Origin: Bacteroidota bacterium
Lineage (GTDB): Bacteria > Bacteroidota > Rhodothermia > Rhodothermales > Bin80
Direction: 5' to 3'
DNA: 64,000 nt
NCBI GenBank assembly: GCA_028875125.1
Contig: JAPPGC010000016.1
Span: 1 to 64,000 of the forward strand
In this document: in pieces, positions 2,915 to 30,880 of the stretch
Layout of the letters: every line of letters starts with the position of its first letter
Position numbering within the stretch: position 1 is the first letter of the stretch
Notes under the pieces: model-generated
The model's input: only the letters and a program-made list of their open reading frames with translations
The model's database searches: none
What the model was told of the DNA's origin: nothing
Translations under genes and position numbers: made by a program

Positions 2915-3778
2915 GTGTCCGCAGATACCCCTAACCGAAAAACCATGGATGATTCTGCTCAGAGCAGTGAGGTCATTCAGCTAAATGTAGCAACATCAGT
3001 TTATCATGATGTGTGTGTGGCTGATGTAATGAATCTGTTGAATGTGGCTGCCGCAACAGCAATGGAGTTCTTTGGGTGTGTTACACCCCGATGGAAGGAT
3101 TCAATGTCCTATGTTACGGACGCGGATCTTGCAATACAGCATCTGATCGTTGAATGGCTCAACCAGCATTATCCTGATGATGGCATCATTGCAGAGGAAG
3201 AAGATCTAAGGAAAGAGCCGACGACAGGTAGCCGGTACTGGTCAATTGATCCAATTGACGGGACGGCAGCCTTTGTGGGTGGTCTGCCTGTATGGGGCAC
3301 AGGATTGGCGTTGTTGGAGGATTATGAGCCCATAGTTGCTTTTTTTTCTGCACCCGTGACACGGGATCAATACTGGGCACTGAAAGGGAACGGAGCATAC
3401 AGGGGAGAGCAACGCCTGTCAGTTCGCCCGCCAAGTCCCCTGCATCGTGAATCTGTACTGCTCAGCTACTCAAAACTGCATCGCCAAAAAGTTCTCAGCT
3501 CCAAGTACCCCGGGAAAGTGCGGAGCCTTGGGTCAACAATTGCTCACCTCTGCTACGCAGCAGCAGGCAATTGCGACGCGACACTTTTGACTCGTGTAAG
3601 CTTGTGGGATGTAGCCCCGGGGCTGTTAATGCTACGAGAGAGCGGAGGAGAGTTGCGGTACGTTAACGGGGATCAGGTTAGCCTGAAAGATATGCTCACC
3701 AGCAGAGCCCCCGCATTAATGATAGGAGGGCATCCCGAGATGGTCAGGAGCTTTGACGCACTACTTTCTGTCGACTAA
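2915..3778 (+). CDS. Inositol monophosphatase family protein (histidinol-phosphatase-like)
   Basis: VTDADLAIQ, IAEEE, SIDPIDGTAAFVGGLP and the C-terminal WDVAPGLLMLRESGG motif. Confidence 0.9.
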   Translation: MSADTPNRKTMDDSAQSSEVIQLNVATSVYHDVCVADVMNLLNVAAATAMEFFGCVTPRWKDSMSYVTDADLAIQHLIVEWLNQHYPDDGIIAEEEDLRKEPTTGSRYWSIDPIDGTAAFVGGLPVWGTGLALLEDYEPIVAFFSAPVTRDQYWALKGNGAYRGEQRLSVRPPSPLHRESVLLSYSKLHRQKVLSSKYPGKVRSLGSTIAHLCYAAAGNCDATLLTRVSLWDVAPGLLMLRESGGELRYVNGDQVSLKDMLTSRAPALMIGGHPEMVRSFDALLSVD

Positions 3779-5298
3779 TCTACTAGGATCCGGCGGGCCC
3801 GCTGACCGGCATGTGCAAGAACACCGTCAGCCACAATTCGGTTCTCACTCATTCGTGGTACCTTTGCCTGACTGTTAATGTCCCCCCGGCTGGACTTAAG
3901 CCATGCATTGAAAGTGCCATCCGGTAGAATTACAATTTCTGGTGGGCCAAAGGCCTTGGCCTCACGCCGTATTTGGTAGTGTCGATTAATATCGCAGAGT
4001 ATGGAGTCCAGTGATCTTACAAATGCTTCACAGTCTCCTGGGAGGCGGCTAAACTCAAACAGCCATTCATGCGCAGGAACCTGTGCGCCGTTGGGGGGAA
4101 TAGCCGAAACGTGGTAGTCACGTACGTGACTGTTTGTGGCTTTGCATGACCTATCAATTGCGGTCCGAGCATCCTCACCAAAGACAGCTTCTCCGTACTT
4201 GTCGATCATTTCAGAGGTGCGGCCGGCAATTACAATCTTGTGTGGGTCAGTGCTTGTGAAGCGCACGACATCCCCCAGCAAGTAGGACCAAAGTCCGCTG
4301 CAGGTTGTGAGAATCATGGCGTACCGTACGCCAGGTTCCACATTGCTAATCGTTCGTCGTTCAGGAATCTCGGAATTCAGTTCATCCAGGCGGATGAACT
4401 CGTAGAAGACTCCGTTATTCAGATGTAACCGCATGGCCGGATCGCTTAGATCCGTCTGATAGGAGAAAAATCCCTCCGATGCACCGTAAGCTTCAAGGAA
4501 ATGCATCTTCGGTAGACCTATCTGCTCCTCAAGTACTGCGCGGTACGAGCTCAGAGCTACGCCGCCGGAGATGTATAGCTGCAAGTTGGGCCAGATTTCT
4601 CCGACAGTTCGTACGCTGGTTCCGTTTATTTCGTTATACCTTTCGATCAACAACCCAAAAAGCACCAGGGCCCAGGTTGGGGCCATGGCTACCATACGCA
4701 CATCCTGATTCAGCGTCTGGTCGACAATGGCCTGGATCTTTGAATCCCAGTTGGGTGCAAAAGCGATAGAAATTGGAACCGCCTGCAGAAAGGCCCTAAA
4801 GAATCCAGGCGCGAACAGAATCTGTAGGCCGCTCACTTCTCCAACTAGTGTTCCCGGATAATTGGGATCATCCTCAACACGTCCAGGAAGGGTCAGGTGC
4901 TTGCCAAGGAAAGTTTTGAAGGCGCCCGTACGAACCAGATAGCTAAACCCTAGACCAACCGAAAAGCCACGGTTCAGGCGGAGCATATCTTTACTCAGAG
5001 GAATGACCTTGCCCTCGGAGGCGGTACCGCTCGAAACGGCGAAATGCTTAACATCACCTGGCCAGAGCAGGTCATGCTCCCCCGCTCTTATTCGGTCTAT
5101 GTAAGGCTTAAGGTCTGTGTAGGTGTGTATTGGAACGCGCGACTGGTATGCATCAATCACGTCCGATTGCTGCGCAATCTCTGCGAACTCAAACCTGCGA
5201 CCCCACTCAGTCTTTGAGGCTCGTCGCAGCATTCGCCGCAGGAGATACGCCTGCATTTCAGCCGGTGTCCGCGTACGTATATGGGAGACGATTCGCAA
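3775..5298 (-). CDS. GH3 auxin-responsive promoter family protein (adenylate-forming acyl-amido synthetase-like)
   Basis: FAVSSGTASEGKVIPLS, YGASEGFF and YLLGDVVRFTS motifs; ~507 aa. Confidence 0.88.
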   Translation of the reverse strand: MRIVSHIRTRTPAEMQAYLLRRMLRRASKTEWGRRFEFAEIAQQSDVIDAYQSRVPIHTYTDLKPYIDRIRAGEHDLLWPGDVKHFAVSSGTASEGKVIPLSKDMLRLNRGFSVGLGFSYLVRTGAFKTFLGKHLTLPGRVEDDPNYPGTLVGEVSGLQILFAPGFFRAFLQAVPISIAFAPNWDSKIQAIVDQTLNQDVRMVAMAPTWALVLFGLLIERYNEINGTSVRTVGEIWPNLQLYISGGVALSSYRAVLEEQIGLPKMHFLEAYGASEGFFSYQTDLSDPAMRLHLNNGVFYEFIRLDELNSEIPERRTISNVEPGVRYAMILTTCSGLWSYLLGDVVRFTSTDPHKIVIAGRTSEMIDKYGEAVFGEDARTAIDRSCKATNSHVRDYHVSAIPPNGAQVPAHEWLFEFSRLPGDCEAFVRSLDSILCDINRHYQIRREAKAFGPPEIVILPDGTFNAWLKSSRGDINSQAKVPRMSENRIVADGVLAHAGQRARRILVD

Positions 5299-10980: not shown

Positions 10981-11229
10981 TACAGGGCCGGCGCATAAGA
11001 GGGTTGATTGAACGCTTCGGCGCCACAGAATTTGGCTAATCTACTCCAAGTAGGCTCGTCAATGATAAGCTGGCGAAGCCCTGCAATGGCACGCTGTTGC
11101 AAGCTGGCCTTGTAATCCTCGTTGCGGTTTTTTCACCAACAGACAGTTTCTACTTCTGGTGTGAAATAGGGCAGTGCGTCTTTGACGCGTCTAGTCAGTA
11201 AAAACTGTGCAACACACGGGCCAGTCGGC

Positions 11230-11820
11230 ATGAAAATCATCTTCTGGGGGATAATCCTGACAACTCTGGGCATCGGCTGTAATTCCCAAACAGAGTCCGA
11301 GCATGCAACAATTCTGAAGGAGCAGAACGGGCGTTACCCGGCAATGGAAGCCGAGGACTGGTATAAACTGGTCCATCAGTCGGTTTTTGGTGCCGGTCAT
11401 GCGATACAGAACGTCGAAACTGCTCATGATTGGCTAATCCGTGAATGGGAGGACCTTGACACGGTCAGCAATGAGCCTCTGGTAGAAATACTTGGACCGG
11501 ATTCTATGTATGCACGAATAAACTTGCGCCCGTACAAGTCTGCAGGTGGTAGATCTGACGAACTTTTCCAGGCTTTTCTGCAGACGGCGAACCAGGGGGC
11601 GGAACCTGGCGATGGGTTTGAACGATACTGGCAATCTCTGCGGGACGCTGCCAAGAAACGTACGATTACGGTCAGCTTGGATGCACTGGACTCGCTATAC
11701 AGCATCATGTCAGCGGAAGGGCTTCCCGCGATCCACCATTCGGAGCGATACTCGGGGCTGTATGATCCTGCTTACCGAGTAGTGAGTCGCGAACTGTTGC
11801 AAGAGATGCAGCACCTGTAG
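11230..11820 (+). CDS. Hypothetical lipoprotein
   Basis: MKIIFWGIILTTLGIGCNS signal and lipobox; start adjusted to the internal ATG. Confidence 0.7.
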   Translation: MKIIFWGIILTTLGIGCNSQTESEHATILKEQNGRYPAMEAEDWYKLVHQSVFGAGHAIQNVETAHDWLIREWEDLDTVSNEPLVEILGPDSMYARINLRPYKSAGGRSDELFQAFLQTANQGAEPGDGFERYWQSLRDAAKKRTITVSLDALDSLYSIMSAEGLPAIHHSERYSGLYDPAYRVVSRELLQEMQHL

Positions 11821-11864: not shown

Positions 11865-11951
11865 TGGTGCCCGGGACTGGAATCGAACCAGCACGCCCGT
11901 AAGGGCACTGCCCCCTCAAGACAGCGCGTCTACCTATTCCGCCACCCGGGC
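11865..11951 (-). tRNA. tRNA-Leu(GAG), CCA encoded, uninterrupted
   Basis: Reverse strand GCCCGGG...CTGTC TTGAGGG GGCAG...GGTTCGATTCC...CCCGGGCACCA; class II variable arm TGCCCTTACGGGCGT. Confidence 0.95.
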
Positions 11952-11958
11952 CTGGAAG

Positions 11959-12375
11959 TGATCCCGCCAGGGCTCGAACCTGGGACCCTCTGATTAACCT
12001 ACCACACCGGCTTTCGCCGGCCTCCTGACGGCGTTGTGGTCTGGACCATCTCTTCACCCTTCCGTGTTACGGTGTCGGGTGGGCTGCGTATGGCCTCTGA
12101 GGGCTCTCTTGATTCCGCATACTGCGGAGTTGTGGAGTGATAGTTATTCAGTCATTGTCCCATGAGATTGTCACTTCCTCGAGGGAGGGACTGACTGTAT
12201 CAGGCCACAGATCAAGGTTGCCTGCTGATTACCCACATATCCAATGCATTTTTACGCGTGACAGCGTAGCAGTGGTTTTAGGGCGTCCCAGCATACAGCA
12301 GCCTCCACTCTAGCAGTTCCCTGCATGAGGCTCCATTATTAAAGTCAGATGCTCTTCCAACTGAGCTACGGGATC
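11959..12375 (-). tRNA. tRNA-Lys(UUU) interrupted by a group I intron (exons 12375-12342 and 11997-11959)
   Basis: Joined exons GATCCCGTAGCTCAGTTGGAAGAGCATCTGACTT + TTAATCAGAGGGTCCCAGGTTCGAGCCCTGGCGGGATCA give a 73-nt cloverleaf with all arms paired and loop CUUUUAA. Confidence 0.93.
11998..12341 (-). ncRNA. Group I intron, 344 nt, no ORF, inserted between U34 and U35 of tRNA-Lys
   Basis: Exon CUU pairs with GAG with U.G at the 5' splice site (P1); P3 GGCTGC/GCAGCC; P4 TGCTG/CAGCA; P7 GGCCAT/ATGGTC; P8 CACCC/GGGTG; P9 CCGGC-GAAA-GCCGG; terminal G. Confidence 0.92.
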
Positions 12376-12423: not shown

Positions 12424-12834
12424 TTAATGTTTTACTGGCTGCATGTTCCAGAGTGTCTTCATTGGATACCGCATCACCAATCGTCCCTTTAACTTTGAAG
12501 TATCAAAATTGATGAAGCCAAGTGCCATATATACTTCTGAGGGACAACAGCGCCAAAGCAGCTTGATCTCTCGGTCGCCTTGGCGATAGTCAGTGGTTGC
12601 AATCAATCCAACCAATTGATCTACCCCTGAACCCATGAATACATCTACTTCGGCCCCGTCAGAACTTGTGGTATTGCGGATAAATCCATAGTCCAAAGGG
12701 TAGATGATTTCTGGGTATTTGGGGTGTGCCGTACGTCGAGGACGATCCAATGTTACACCCTCAATGCGAATCAACTGCTCCCACAGATCCCAAGAAAAAC
12801 GCTTTTTTAGAATTGACAGGTATGCGTCCGTCAT
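12424..12834 (-). CDS. Inorganic pyrophosphatase-like protein
   Basis: [16 protein letters not shown] and GAEVDVFMG motifs. Confidence 0.75.
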
Positions 12835-14660
12835 TTGGCTTTAGGGACATACCGAACATGCAATTCATTCAGCCTCTCGGGGGCAACTGTGGTGGGCGTT
12901 CCAGACATGGGCTCCTGAGCGCTTTGTGTTTTCGGGAATGCGATTACTTCACGAAGTGAAGTTGATCCTGAAAGCAGCATAACAATGCGGTCCAGCCCCA
13001 TAGCAATCCCTCCGTGAGGAGGTGCGCCATAGCGCAATGCTTCCAGTAGAAACCCGAATCGCTCTTGGCTTTCTTCGGGGTCTATACCCAGAACATTAAA
13101 CATTTGCTCCTGAATGCTTCGATCGTGAATACGAATAGATCCGCCACCAATCTCCATACCGTTGAGCACGATGTCATACGCACGCGCTTGAACGTGACCT
13201 GGATCACTTGAAAGAAGCTGCAAATCCTCTGTTCGGGGTGAAGTAAACGGGTGGTGCATTGCCGAATAGCGCTTTTCCTGGGCATCCCATTCCAAAAGAG
13301 GGAAATTGGTGATCCACACGAACTGCCACGCGTCTTCTGCAATGCAGTCAAGCTCCTGCGCCATATGCAGGCGAAGGCTGCCCATCTGCTCCTGAACAGT
13401 AGGCCATTGACCACAAAGAATAAGCAGTAGATCTCCTGTTTGGGCTCCCGAAGCCTCAATGGCACTGCTCACGAACTCATCCGGGAGGACATGCGTCTTA
13501 ACAGAACAGTTTGGGCGAGATCCATCGGAAGGGATCCGTACATAAATCAGTCCGCCAGCCCCAATTTGTTTGCGAACGACAGTTTTATCCAGGCGGTCCA
13601 TATACCCGCGCCCTCGATCCCCCTGTCCGGGAGCAACGAGTCCCAACACAGATCCACCTGCGGAAAGTGCTTGATCAAACACACGGAATCCCGAATTATT
13701 GAAAACGGAACTGAGATCGCAGATTTCGAGATCAAAACGCAGATCAGGTTTGTCGGAGCCATACCGGCGCAGGGCATCCTCGTAAGACAATCTAGGGAAG
13801 GGGATAGGAAGGTCTACGTTGAGGATATCTTTCCAAAGCGCCACCAAGAGCCCTTCGGTTACAGAATAAACCATATCCTCTGTCGCGAAGGTCATTTCAA
13901 TATCAATCTGCGTGAACTCCGGTTGTCGGTCCGCCCGTAAATCTTCGTCTCTGAAGCATTTCACGATCTGCACGTACCGATCCAGACCTCCGACCATGAG
14001 GAGCTGCTTGTACGTCTGTGGGCTTTGAGGCAGCGCATAGAATGATCCGGGATGCACTCGACTCGGAACGAGATAATCGCGGGCTCCTTCTGGGGTGGAC
14101 TTCATGAGCGTCGGCGTTTCGACCTCGAGGAAGTTCTGTGCGTCAAAATAGCGGTGGATCGTCTGATAGGCTCGGTGTCTCAGCACAATTTTATTTTGCA
14201 GATCCGGTCTTCGAAGATCTAGGTAACGGTATTTAAGCCGTAGATCCTCGGATGCCAGTTTAATCTTTTGTGTATGTGCAGACACGGGGAAGGGCATAGG
14301 TTCTGATTCAGCAAGAATGATCAGACTCTCTACACGAACCTCAATCGTTCCAGTTGAGAGGTTTGGATTAATGGTCTCGCTTGACCTTGGTGCGACGATC
14401 CCGATTACTGACACGACATATTCACTTCGCAGACGATCAGCTAGATCGTGTGCAGCGACATTGTCCTGAGGGGAGAAAACAACCTGGGTTAAACCGTAGC
14501 GATCTCGAAGATCTACAAAGATCACCCCGCCCAGATCACGGCGTGTGTCCACCCAACCTTTGAGTACAACATTCTCTCCCAGATGTATATCGGATAGCTC
14601 TCCACAGGTATGCGTCCGGTGTGGATGCTCGGTCATTAAATCGCTTGAAGGGCCAGACAT
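12831..14660 (-). CDS. aspS: Aspartyl-tRNA synthetase
   Basis: [57 protein letters not shown]. Confidence 0.97.
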
Positions 14661-29165: not shown

Positions 29166-30880
29166 CGGAGCGCGTTCCATAGAACAAGAGTTACTGTGGC
29201 TGCTGCAGAGAGGACCCCAACTAGGCCTTGAACCTGCTGTGCACGTGCTTGGCGGGAAGTCACGGTTAGCTGTTCCAGTCGAGAAACGAAAATGGTATCG
29301 CCTGGACGTACAGGTTCATTCGATCCTTGGCGCACAGTAGAGCTACTCCCGTTATAGATATAAACTTTATTCGCCTCCGGCCCCGATCCCCCGACACGAT
29401 CAACATAGTACCTAGCAGTCATTCCCGACACAAAAGTCACATAACCTGGCTGAGGAACGTTTCCAGTTACCAGGACTGTGCCTTCGTCACGCGGAAGGAT
29501 CAGCCGGTCTCCGTCGTAGAGTACAATATCTTCGCTACTGCCAGACAATGCTCCGGCAATGTCCGCAGCAACATGGCTGCCGAGTTCACCGGAAAAAGGT
29601 CTCCGAAAGCTCTCAGAAAACAATCGGCCTGTGGGATCACTAGTTGAGGTAGGTACTAATTCAGATTCTGCAAGGATTTGAGGAGTATCTATGAGATTGT
29701 TTTGGCTCGTACGCTCCAACGTGGCCGAATTAGTACTTGCACCGTCCCTGAGCCCGCCGGCCAGTTCAACCAACTGTGTCAGCGTCGTTTTCCCTCCCTC
29801 TATGCGATATTCTCCGGGGTATTCGACCCACCCCTCAATTTTTGCTGTAGCTGTTTTCTGTTCATAGATAGTGAGATGGTCACCGGCTATGAGAGGCTGT
29901 TCCCCCATTGAATTCTGCTCCAACCCCTCAATGCCCTGATCAATTACCGTGTGATAGGCGCCATCACGCCATCGCATGAGGCGGAATTGCGTTGCGCTAT
30001 TTAGCGGGCGGCCCCCCGTTGCAAGGTCAAGTAGGCTGGCAATCGTATCATCGGGGCGCCAGTCGTACAGTCCAGGCCAGGCGACATCACCGGAGATACG
30101 TATACTTTCCCGGATTTCGTGATAGGCGGGAACATTGATCCGATCGCCATCCCGCAGAAGTGGGTTGTAAGCTGTATTGCCTGTAGTCTGGTATCGGGGC
30201 AGATCAATCAACTCTTCTGTTCCGTCTCTACGCTGTACCTGGATGTTTCTCAGTGCAGGTTTGTATGCCTCGTTGGTTTCCGGTCGAAACAACTGTTCAG
30301 GAGCCACAAAATCAACTTCCACATCTTCATTGGTCTGCCTAGTGGTTATTACACCGGAGGAGAGCGCCTGGAGTACAACATCACTTACACGCGAGGCGGG
30401 GAGCATCGGGAAACGTCCAGTTTTAATAACTGAGCCCGTAACGTGAACATAGAAGCTTCGCGCCTGTGCCAGAGAGAGACTAATGGGGGCATTGACATAT
30501 CTGGATTCGAGCAGCTCCATAGCACTGCTTACAACCTGTGCCAATGTCTTGCCACCGGCATTTAGGTCGCCGGCCTCCGGTAGGGGTAGCACGCCAGAAG
30601 CTGAGACGGTAAGCGGGATCTCGCGTGGGTTCAGTCCTCCAATCATTAAACGGAAGACATCGCCAGGACCAATGAGATATTCATTGGGATCAACGGCCCC
30701 CTCCAGTATCAGGGAGCCTGATTGCCCAACCTGTGTAAGCATGGCTCTCCTGAATTCCTCTTGAGGGTCATCCGGGGTTGCACTGACCGAGGACACGCGG
30801 TTGGGAGCGATTTGAGCACTGGCTGGTATCGTTAGAGCCAAAAAAAAGGCAGCAACCCAGCAGATAGTGAGCTTGCGCAT
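29162..30880 (-). CDS. SLBB-domain polysaccharide export protein (Wza-like)
   Basis: YLIGPGDVFRLMIGG, several SLBB-type repeats, signal peptide MRKLTICWVAAFFLALTIPASAQ. Confidence 0.88.
   Translation of the reverse strand: MRKLTICWVAAFFLALTIPASAQIAPNRVSSVSATPDDPQEEFRRAMLTQVGQSGSLILEGAVDPNEYLIGPGDVFRLMIGGLNPREIPLTVSASGVLPLPEAGDLNAGGKTLAQVVSSAMELLESRYVNAPISLSLAQARSFYVHVTGSVIKTGRFPMLPASRVSDVVLQALSSGVITTRQTNEDVEVDFVAPEQLFRPETNEAYKPALRNIQVQRRDGTEELIDLPRYQTTGNTAYNPLLRDGDRINVPAYHEIRESIRISGDVAWPGLYDWRPDDTIASLLDLATGGRPLNSATQFRLMRWRDGAYHTVIDQGIEGLEQNSMGEQPLIAGDHLTIYEQKTATAKIEGWVEYPGEYRIEGGKTTLTQLVELAGGLRDGASTNSATLERTSQNNLIDTPQILAESELVPTSTSDPTGRLFSESFRRPFSGELGSHVAADIAGALSGSSEDIVLYDGDRLILPRDEGTVLVTGNVPQPGYVTFVSGMTARYYVDRVGGSGPEANKVYIYNGSSSTVRQGSNEPVRPGDTIFVSRLEQLTVTSRQARAQQVQGLVGVLSAAATVTLVLWNALR

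Follow-up and report, generated by a model that had tools for sequence, protein, structure and literature searches.

The split tRNA-Lys gene and the fold of its intron

The window analysed here (64,000 nt of contig JAPPGC010000016.1 from a Rhodothermales draft genome) carries on its minus strand, from position 12375 to 11959, a tRNA-Lys(UUU) gene in which a group I intron of 344 nt is inserted directly 3' of U34 (Table 1). ARAGORN made no tRNA call before splicing and reported a clean tRNA-Lys(ttt) once positions 11998-12341 were removed; the joined exons (34 + 39 = 73 nt) then show the cloverleaf, the UUU anticodon and A73. Plain RNA folding of the 73-nt spliced tRNA gave a non-cloverleaf optimum and was uninformative. 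The spliced product is identical at 70 of 73 positions (three differences) to the intact tRNA-Lys(UUU) of a complete genome from a sister family (G019), indicating that the sister-family gene represents the empty site. The tRNA-Leu(GAG) gene located downstream probably shares one transcript with the split gene, and no match to a sigma-70-type promoter was found upstream of the latter. A short ORF at 12424-12834 (minus strand), which matches inorganic pyrophosphatase only in part and below threshold, overlaps the end of an aspartyl-tRNA synthetase-like gene (12831-14660).

Table 1. Features of the split tRNA-Lys(UUU) locus and predicted helices of its intron (window coordinates).
Feature	Position	Strand	Evidence
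5' exon of tRNA-Lys(UUU), positions 1-34, ending C32 U33 U34	12342..12375	-	sequence
Group I intron, 344 nt; 5' end UAAUAAUGGAGCC, 3' end GGUAGG, terminal G at 11998	11998..12341	-	sequence, Rfam, covariation, ARAGORN
Internal guide sequence GAG, pairing with C32 U33 U34 (12342-12344) as P1; U34.G at the 5' splice site	12331..12333	-	sequence; no variation among the 17 introns of the family or the 23 of the four-phyla set
P2 hairpin closed by a GNRA loop (GGAA); strong covariation in relatives, two mismatches in the window copy	12308..12329	-	structure check, family alignment
P3 5' strand GGCUGC, pairing with 12082-12087	12298..12303	-	5/6 pairs doubly changed across phyla
P4 5' strand UGCUG, pairing with 12223-12227	12289..12293	-	invariant across the phyla set
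P5 (12281-12283 with 12232-12234) and extension	12232..12283	-	5/7 extension pairs doubly changed in the family
P4 3' strand CAGCA	12223..12227	-	family and cross-phylum alignments
P6 extension; homologous place holds an endonuclease gene in phage intron L300 and a remnant in relative G015	12106..12218	-	sequence comparison
P7 5' strand GGCCAU, guanosine-binding site by homology, pairing with 12044-12049	12090..12095	-	compensatory changes across phyla
P3 3' strand GCAGCC	12082..12087	-	family and cross-phylum alignments
P8 hairpin (12077-12081 with 12055-12059)	12055..12081	-	family and cross-phylum alignments
P7 3' strand AUGGUC	12044..12049	-	family and cross-phylum alignments
P9 stem, inner hairpin CCGGC-GAAA-GCCGG (12007-12020)	12002..12039	-	family and cross-phylum alignments
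3' exon of tRNA-Lys(UUU), U35 to discriminator A73; CCA not encoded	11959..11997	-	sequence
Intact tRNA-Leu(GAG), 7 nt downstream of the split tRNA-Lys	11865..11951	-	ARAGORN

The intron has the hallmarks of its class, as every pair of the group I core forms, including the pseudoknotted P3-P7 core, P4-P6 and P8, with a P1 U.G wobble and a G as last base. The constancy of the terminal G among relatives is not independent evidence, because the search pattern for relatives required it. The preceding base differs among them (A, C or G), which marks the last G as the terminal intron base. ARAGORN's intron mode calls a tRNA-Asn(GUU) split after U33, with the join shifted by one base as the GG at the intron's 3' end formally allows, and we rejected this scarcely conceivable assignment given the sister-family tRNA-Lys(UUU) that nearly matches the spliced product, an intact tRNA-Asn of unlike sequence elsewhere in the genome, the P1 U.G pair on U34 conserved in all relatives, the introns ending in A or C that the shifted join would create in several of these, and the complete lack of a tRNA-Lys that it would leave in the genome.

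Covariation supports the proposed fold. In an alignment of 17 introns from family f1, to which the genome belongs, 98% of the pair cells are standard and 17 pairs are doubly changed, a count reached by none of 500 shuffles. Versions of the structure slid along the family introns were only 33-40% paired, a control that favours the tested structure because this was drawn on the window sequence. Across 23 introns from Rhodothermota, Planctomycetota, Actinomycetota, and Poribacteria, the core is 98% paired and 17 of 39 pairs are doubly changed, with compensatory changes in P3, P7, and P8. The window copy itself has one mismatch in the P5 extension in addition to those in P2. Both P2 and P9 end in GNRA loops; in subgroup IC3, such loops dock in P8 and P5. 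For P10, which is not universal among group I introns, none was evident, and only a G.U with U35 appeared possible by eye.

The original prediction, made from the sequence of the window, had placed a tRNA-Lys(UUU) split after U34 on the minus strand, 73 nt long when joined, around a 344-nt insert ending in G, and every coordinate was borne out; the P3, P4, P7, P8, and P9 GAAA helices that it had proposed are fully paired at the expected positions. It had also described the intron as free of ORFs, and no ORF longer than 58 aa lies within it, so that the homing endonuclease typical of mobile group I introns is absent. Its description as compact is only partly apt, as the P6 extension spans ~110 nt and other tRNA-Lys introns are as short as 185 nt. 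The suggested Rfam comparison did yield a match to Intron_gpI (RF00028) over the whole model length, at 32.3 bits (E-value 2e-6 in a 701-nt stretch, 2.5e-6 genome-wide), but this falls below the gathering score of 50 bits, which is a curators' threshold and not a structural criterion. A default scan reports no intron, and routine annotation would thus miss it, in line with the expectation that standard tools overlook this gene. Relatives of the same lineage score 53-80 bits; two Microbacteriaceae tRNA-Lys introns exceed the gathering score, and a phage tRNA-Lys intron reaches 79.8 bits.

Lysine tRNAs in the genome, family and order

No lysine tRNA is found among the identified tRNAs of the 3.3-Mb draft genome (98% complete; 47 tRNA matches above the cut-off), and a search for an intact tRNA-Lys(UUU or CUU) elsewhere in it gave none, which agrees with the earlier suggestion that the genome would apparently lack this tRNA. 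The split gene is present in all 17 genomes of family f1 (seven genera), one of which is a complete chromosome (G014, OX638318.1). A pattern search detected an intact tRNA-Lys(UUU) or (CUU) in none of these 17, where the pattern could miss unusual sequences and a second Lys gene split by an intron of a different type (type ii, see below) would escape it. As none was found in 17 genomes, a second Lys gene hidden in a draft gap is unlikely. In the rest of the order, 0 of 98 genomes have the split gene and 64 of 98 match the intact pattern. The remaining 34 match neither pattern (e.g. G044-G052, G062-G074, families f11 and f12), possibly because their tRNA-Lys has diverged or is interrupted in some other way.

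In the proposed mechanism, the transcript would fold so that C32-U33-U34 pairs with the guide GAG, a guanosine held in P7 would attack after U34, and the freed U34 would in turn attack behind the terminal G of the intron, so that U34 is ligated to U35 and the intron is set free. The mature tRNA-Lys(UUU) would then read both AAA and AAG. The chemistry of splicing, the need of the cell for it in growth, and the direction of the transfer considered below are what we infer from sequence. The intron is almost certainly functional, the split gene would be the main and probably the only tRNA-Lys of the cell, and lysine decoding in family f1 probably cannot do without the intron. A dead relic that no longer splices, with lysine being read by another, unassembled or unrecognised tRNA, would be compatible with the draft state of the genome, the sub-threshold Rfam score, and the P2 mismatches, but is very unlikely: in the 17 family genomes the core is invariant, peripheral helices are compensated, the exons are conserved, and no intact Lys gene was detected, even in the complete chromosome.

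The genome contains two further group I introns, both with a core type other than that of the Lys intron. A 200-nt intron splits tRNA-Arg(UCU) after U36 (G000:C79:12160-12364, L033/L042), and another splits the initiator tRNA-fMet after U33 (G000:C117:2404-2770, L034/L045); no intact copy of either tRNA was seen. Of the 17 family f1 genomes, 15 have the Arg intron, which also occurs in two family f3 genomes, and 16 have the fMet intron, nine of the fMet entries having been recognised by eye from the 3' exon. In addition, a cluster of eight tRNAs (G000:C52:30164-31199, L036) duplicates isotypes present elsewhere and includes a degenerate tRNA-like stretch (30506-30587); it has the appearance of a tRNA array from a mobile element or a phage.

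Relatives in other phyla and known tRNA introns

A scan of GTDB contigs gave at least 117 pattern matches, about 49 of which were dropped for lack of a matching 5' exon, leaving at least 68 loci, spread over several phyla, where a tRNA-Lys(UUU) is interrupted behind U34. The P7 motif divides these into two types, a grouping of our own: type i with at least 50 loci (Rhodothermales, Planctomycetota, Microbacteriaceae, and Poribacteria) and type ii with at least 17 (Microbacterium, Nesterenkonia, Rhizobiales, Sphingomonadales, and one Lachnospiraceae), with one further locus of neither clear type. Beyond family f1, the intact Lys pattern matched in G019, one Blastopirellula carrier, and alphaproteobacterial carriers, and gave no match in Singulisphaera acidiphila, Agromyces cerinus, Microbacterium yannicii, Tautonia, and two Poribacteria. 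The actinobacterial type-ii introns (L065, L067, L091, and others in Microbacterium and Nesterenkonia) occupy the same tRNA-Lys(UUU) site, in genes whose anticodon stem contains a single mismatch (4/5 pairs).

In a tree of 108 introns, which included no cyanobacterial sequence and has many weak branches, the Lys introns of type i fall into a single clade (100/99), separate from the tRNA-Leu, -Arg, -fMet, and type-ii Lys introns, and group largely by phylum within it; adding phage sequences blurred the order inside type i. The presence of two lineages behind U34 of tRNA-Lys indicates that this site was colonised at least twice, and probably three times or more.

The window intron resembles the cyanobacterial-type tRNA-Leu introns, which likewise lie after U34, in being a group I ribozyme of the anticodon loop with a CUU/GAG P1, and the Leu introns of the same order also split their host after U34. 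However, its core does not group with those of the classical tRNA-Leu-like introns tested but belongs to the separate Lys clade, the host is tRNA-Lys(UUU), and the P7 motif is CUCAGAG instead of GUGYAGAG. Both kinds occur in one Poribacteria genome, one in tRNA-Lys and the other in tRNA-Leu. Outside cyanobacteria, tRNA-Leu(UAA) introns after U34 were also observed in families f12 and f13 (L194, L197, L203-L207) and in Poribacteria (L216). A further group I intron splits tRNA-His(GUG) after U33 in family f7 (L186 in G031, about 1501-1763), a host tRNA that we have not seen listed before.

The introns of Azoarcus tRNA-Ile(CAU), located after position 36, and Agrobacterium tRNA-Arg(CCU) are, like the Lys intron, small group I introns of bacterial tRNAs, but they resemble the genome's own Arg and fMet introns rather than the Lys intron, and the Arg(UCU) intron shares the split after position 36 with that of Azoarcus. 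The anticodon-loop group I intron of Synechocystis tRNA-fMet, a subject of Bonocora and Shub (2001; cited in PMC3984707), is reportedly associated with a PD-(D/E)XK-type endonuclease, and phage relatives of the Lys intron carry PF11645 proteins, as described below. It differs from the window intron in its host tRNA and position, and such an ORF is lacking in the latter.

The bacterial tRNA hosts of group I introns named in reviews are Leu(UAA), fMet, Arg, and Ile, in cyanobacteria and proteobacteria (PMC4033280, PMC8450103, PMC3984707). Among open-licence PMC papers, the only tRNA-Lys group I intron found was one claimed for tRNA-Lys(CUU) of the cyanobacterium Gloeocapsa, an element of 37-49 nt (PMC5733544). 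That element shares the isotype with ours but differs in anticodon and length, and at 37-49 nt is too short for a core and hence not a group I intron. The original prediction that the host gene may be new or under-described therefore stands in so far as no open-access description was found, but the gene is not unique to this genome, as the at least 68 loci show. According to its authors, tRNAscan-SE was not built for the detection of genes of this kind (PMC8450103).

Phage relatives and the origin of the intron

Similarity searches with the window intron in collections of phage and plasmid records returned nothing, and all phage relatives come from IMG/VR. There, 54 pattern matches, most of them dropped for lack of a matching 5' exon, led to eight contigs with a split tRNA-Lys(UUU), a link to phages that comprises few contigs from a resource whose contigs can include host DNA. 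Contig L300 (179,902 nt) contains a 708-nt tRNA-Lys(UUU) intron after U34 with the same P7 (GGCCAU/AUGGUC) as family f1. With its P6 loop left out, this intron agrees with that of the window at 184 of 243 aligned positions; the P6 itself holds a 164-aa ORF (3567-4061, minus strand) assigned to PF11645 PDDEXK_5 (E-value 2e-18). Four other tRNAs adjoin the split tRNA-Lys, and ORFs on the contig resemble, by eye, a thymidylate synthase and a ClpP-like protease. In contig L315 (184 kb), tRNA-Lys(UUU) is split after U35, and an endonuclease gene inside this intron, near 11150-11560, also belongs to PF11645 (E-value 2e-15). Both endonuclease genes are intact, and their products are 46% identical. 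Searches with the endonuclease gave no match among PDB sequences, and a search for its relatives recovered only itself. Further type-i cores occur in phage contigs, some apparently within protein genes, so that the core motif of the window lineage is shared with phage group I introns in tRNA and apparently other genes, whereas the window copy is chromosomal and lacks an endonuclease. Small (~200 nt) type-ii introns were also seen in tRNA-Lys(UUU) on two very large, tRNA-bearing phage contigs, L299 (239 kb) and L273 (381 kb).

One family f1 member (G015, L179) retains an endonuclease remnant, MHTKQSGSLGELAQL, in P6 after an AGGAGG motif. This motif is followed by ATG, MHTKQSGSLGEL, and a stop, the peptide being identical at 8 of 12 positions to MHAKSKGLLGEL of L315, and a C-terminal endonuclease piece, NGQKKKVHVWRDYMDF, is located in another frame. 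The N-terminal match scored 21.6 bits, whereas 20 shuffled sets gave no more than 17.7. Part of the longer C-terminal tblastn match is due to conservation of the RNA core. The natural reading of this remnant is that the intron of the family once carried a PD-(D/E)XK endonuclease and then lost it.

The intron of family f1 would accordingly be a vertically inherited resident, whose ancestor would have been a mobile, phage-linked intron with a PD-(D/E)XK homing endonuclease in P6, the gene for which has since been lost. We assign a probability of about 0.9 to the mechanism, in which a group I ribozyme interrupts the tRNA-Lys gene behind U34 and splices itself out. The same gene and ribozyme might instead reflect ancient vertical inheritance across phyla, with phages having acquired the intron from their hosts. 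The largely phylum-wise grouping of type-i introns and their fixation in all 17 family genomes suit this history, but we consider it unlikely in view of the 98 other genomes of the order, in which the split gene is absent and intact genes are common, the patchy occurrence across phyla, the endonuclease-bearing forms in phage contigs together with type-i cores that apparently reside in protein genes, and the remnant in a family member.

For the preferred descent from a mobile intron, a transfer from phage to chromosome has about even odds. A wider scenario, which we regard as evenly balanced, is that phage tRNA-Lys(UUU) genes were the vehicles that brought a PD-(D/E)XK-driven group I lineage into the sole tRNA-Lys of several phyla, and that after loss of the endonuclease whole families came to depend on an ex-parasite ribozyme for every lysine codon. 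A 2014 review noted that every phage intron known at the time was in a protein gene, although phages have many tRNA genes, and that there was little evidence of bacterial introns moving horizontally (PMC3984707). Both points become directly testable with the phage tRNA-Lys introns, whose endonuclease genes are intact in two cases, and with the remnant in a chromosomal copy.

With tRNA-Lys(UUU), an element of a known kind gains a new host gene, in a distinct core lineage with mobile phage relatives. It is a fifth host beside the usual four (Leu, fMet, Arg, and Ile), widespread but overlooked by tRNA finders and often by Rfam as well, and accounts for the apparently missing tRNA-Lys genes of many genomes. 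For family f1, this would mean that the supply of all lysine tRNA hangs on a ribozyme.
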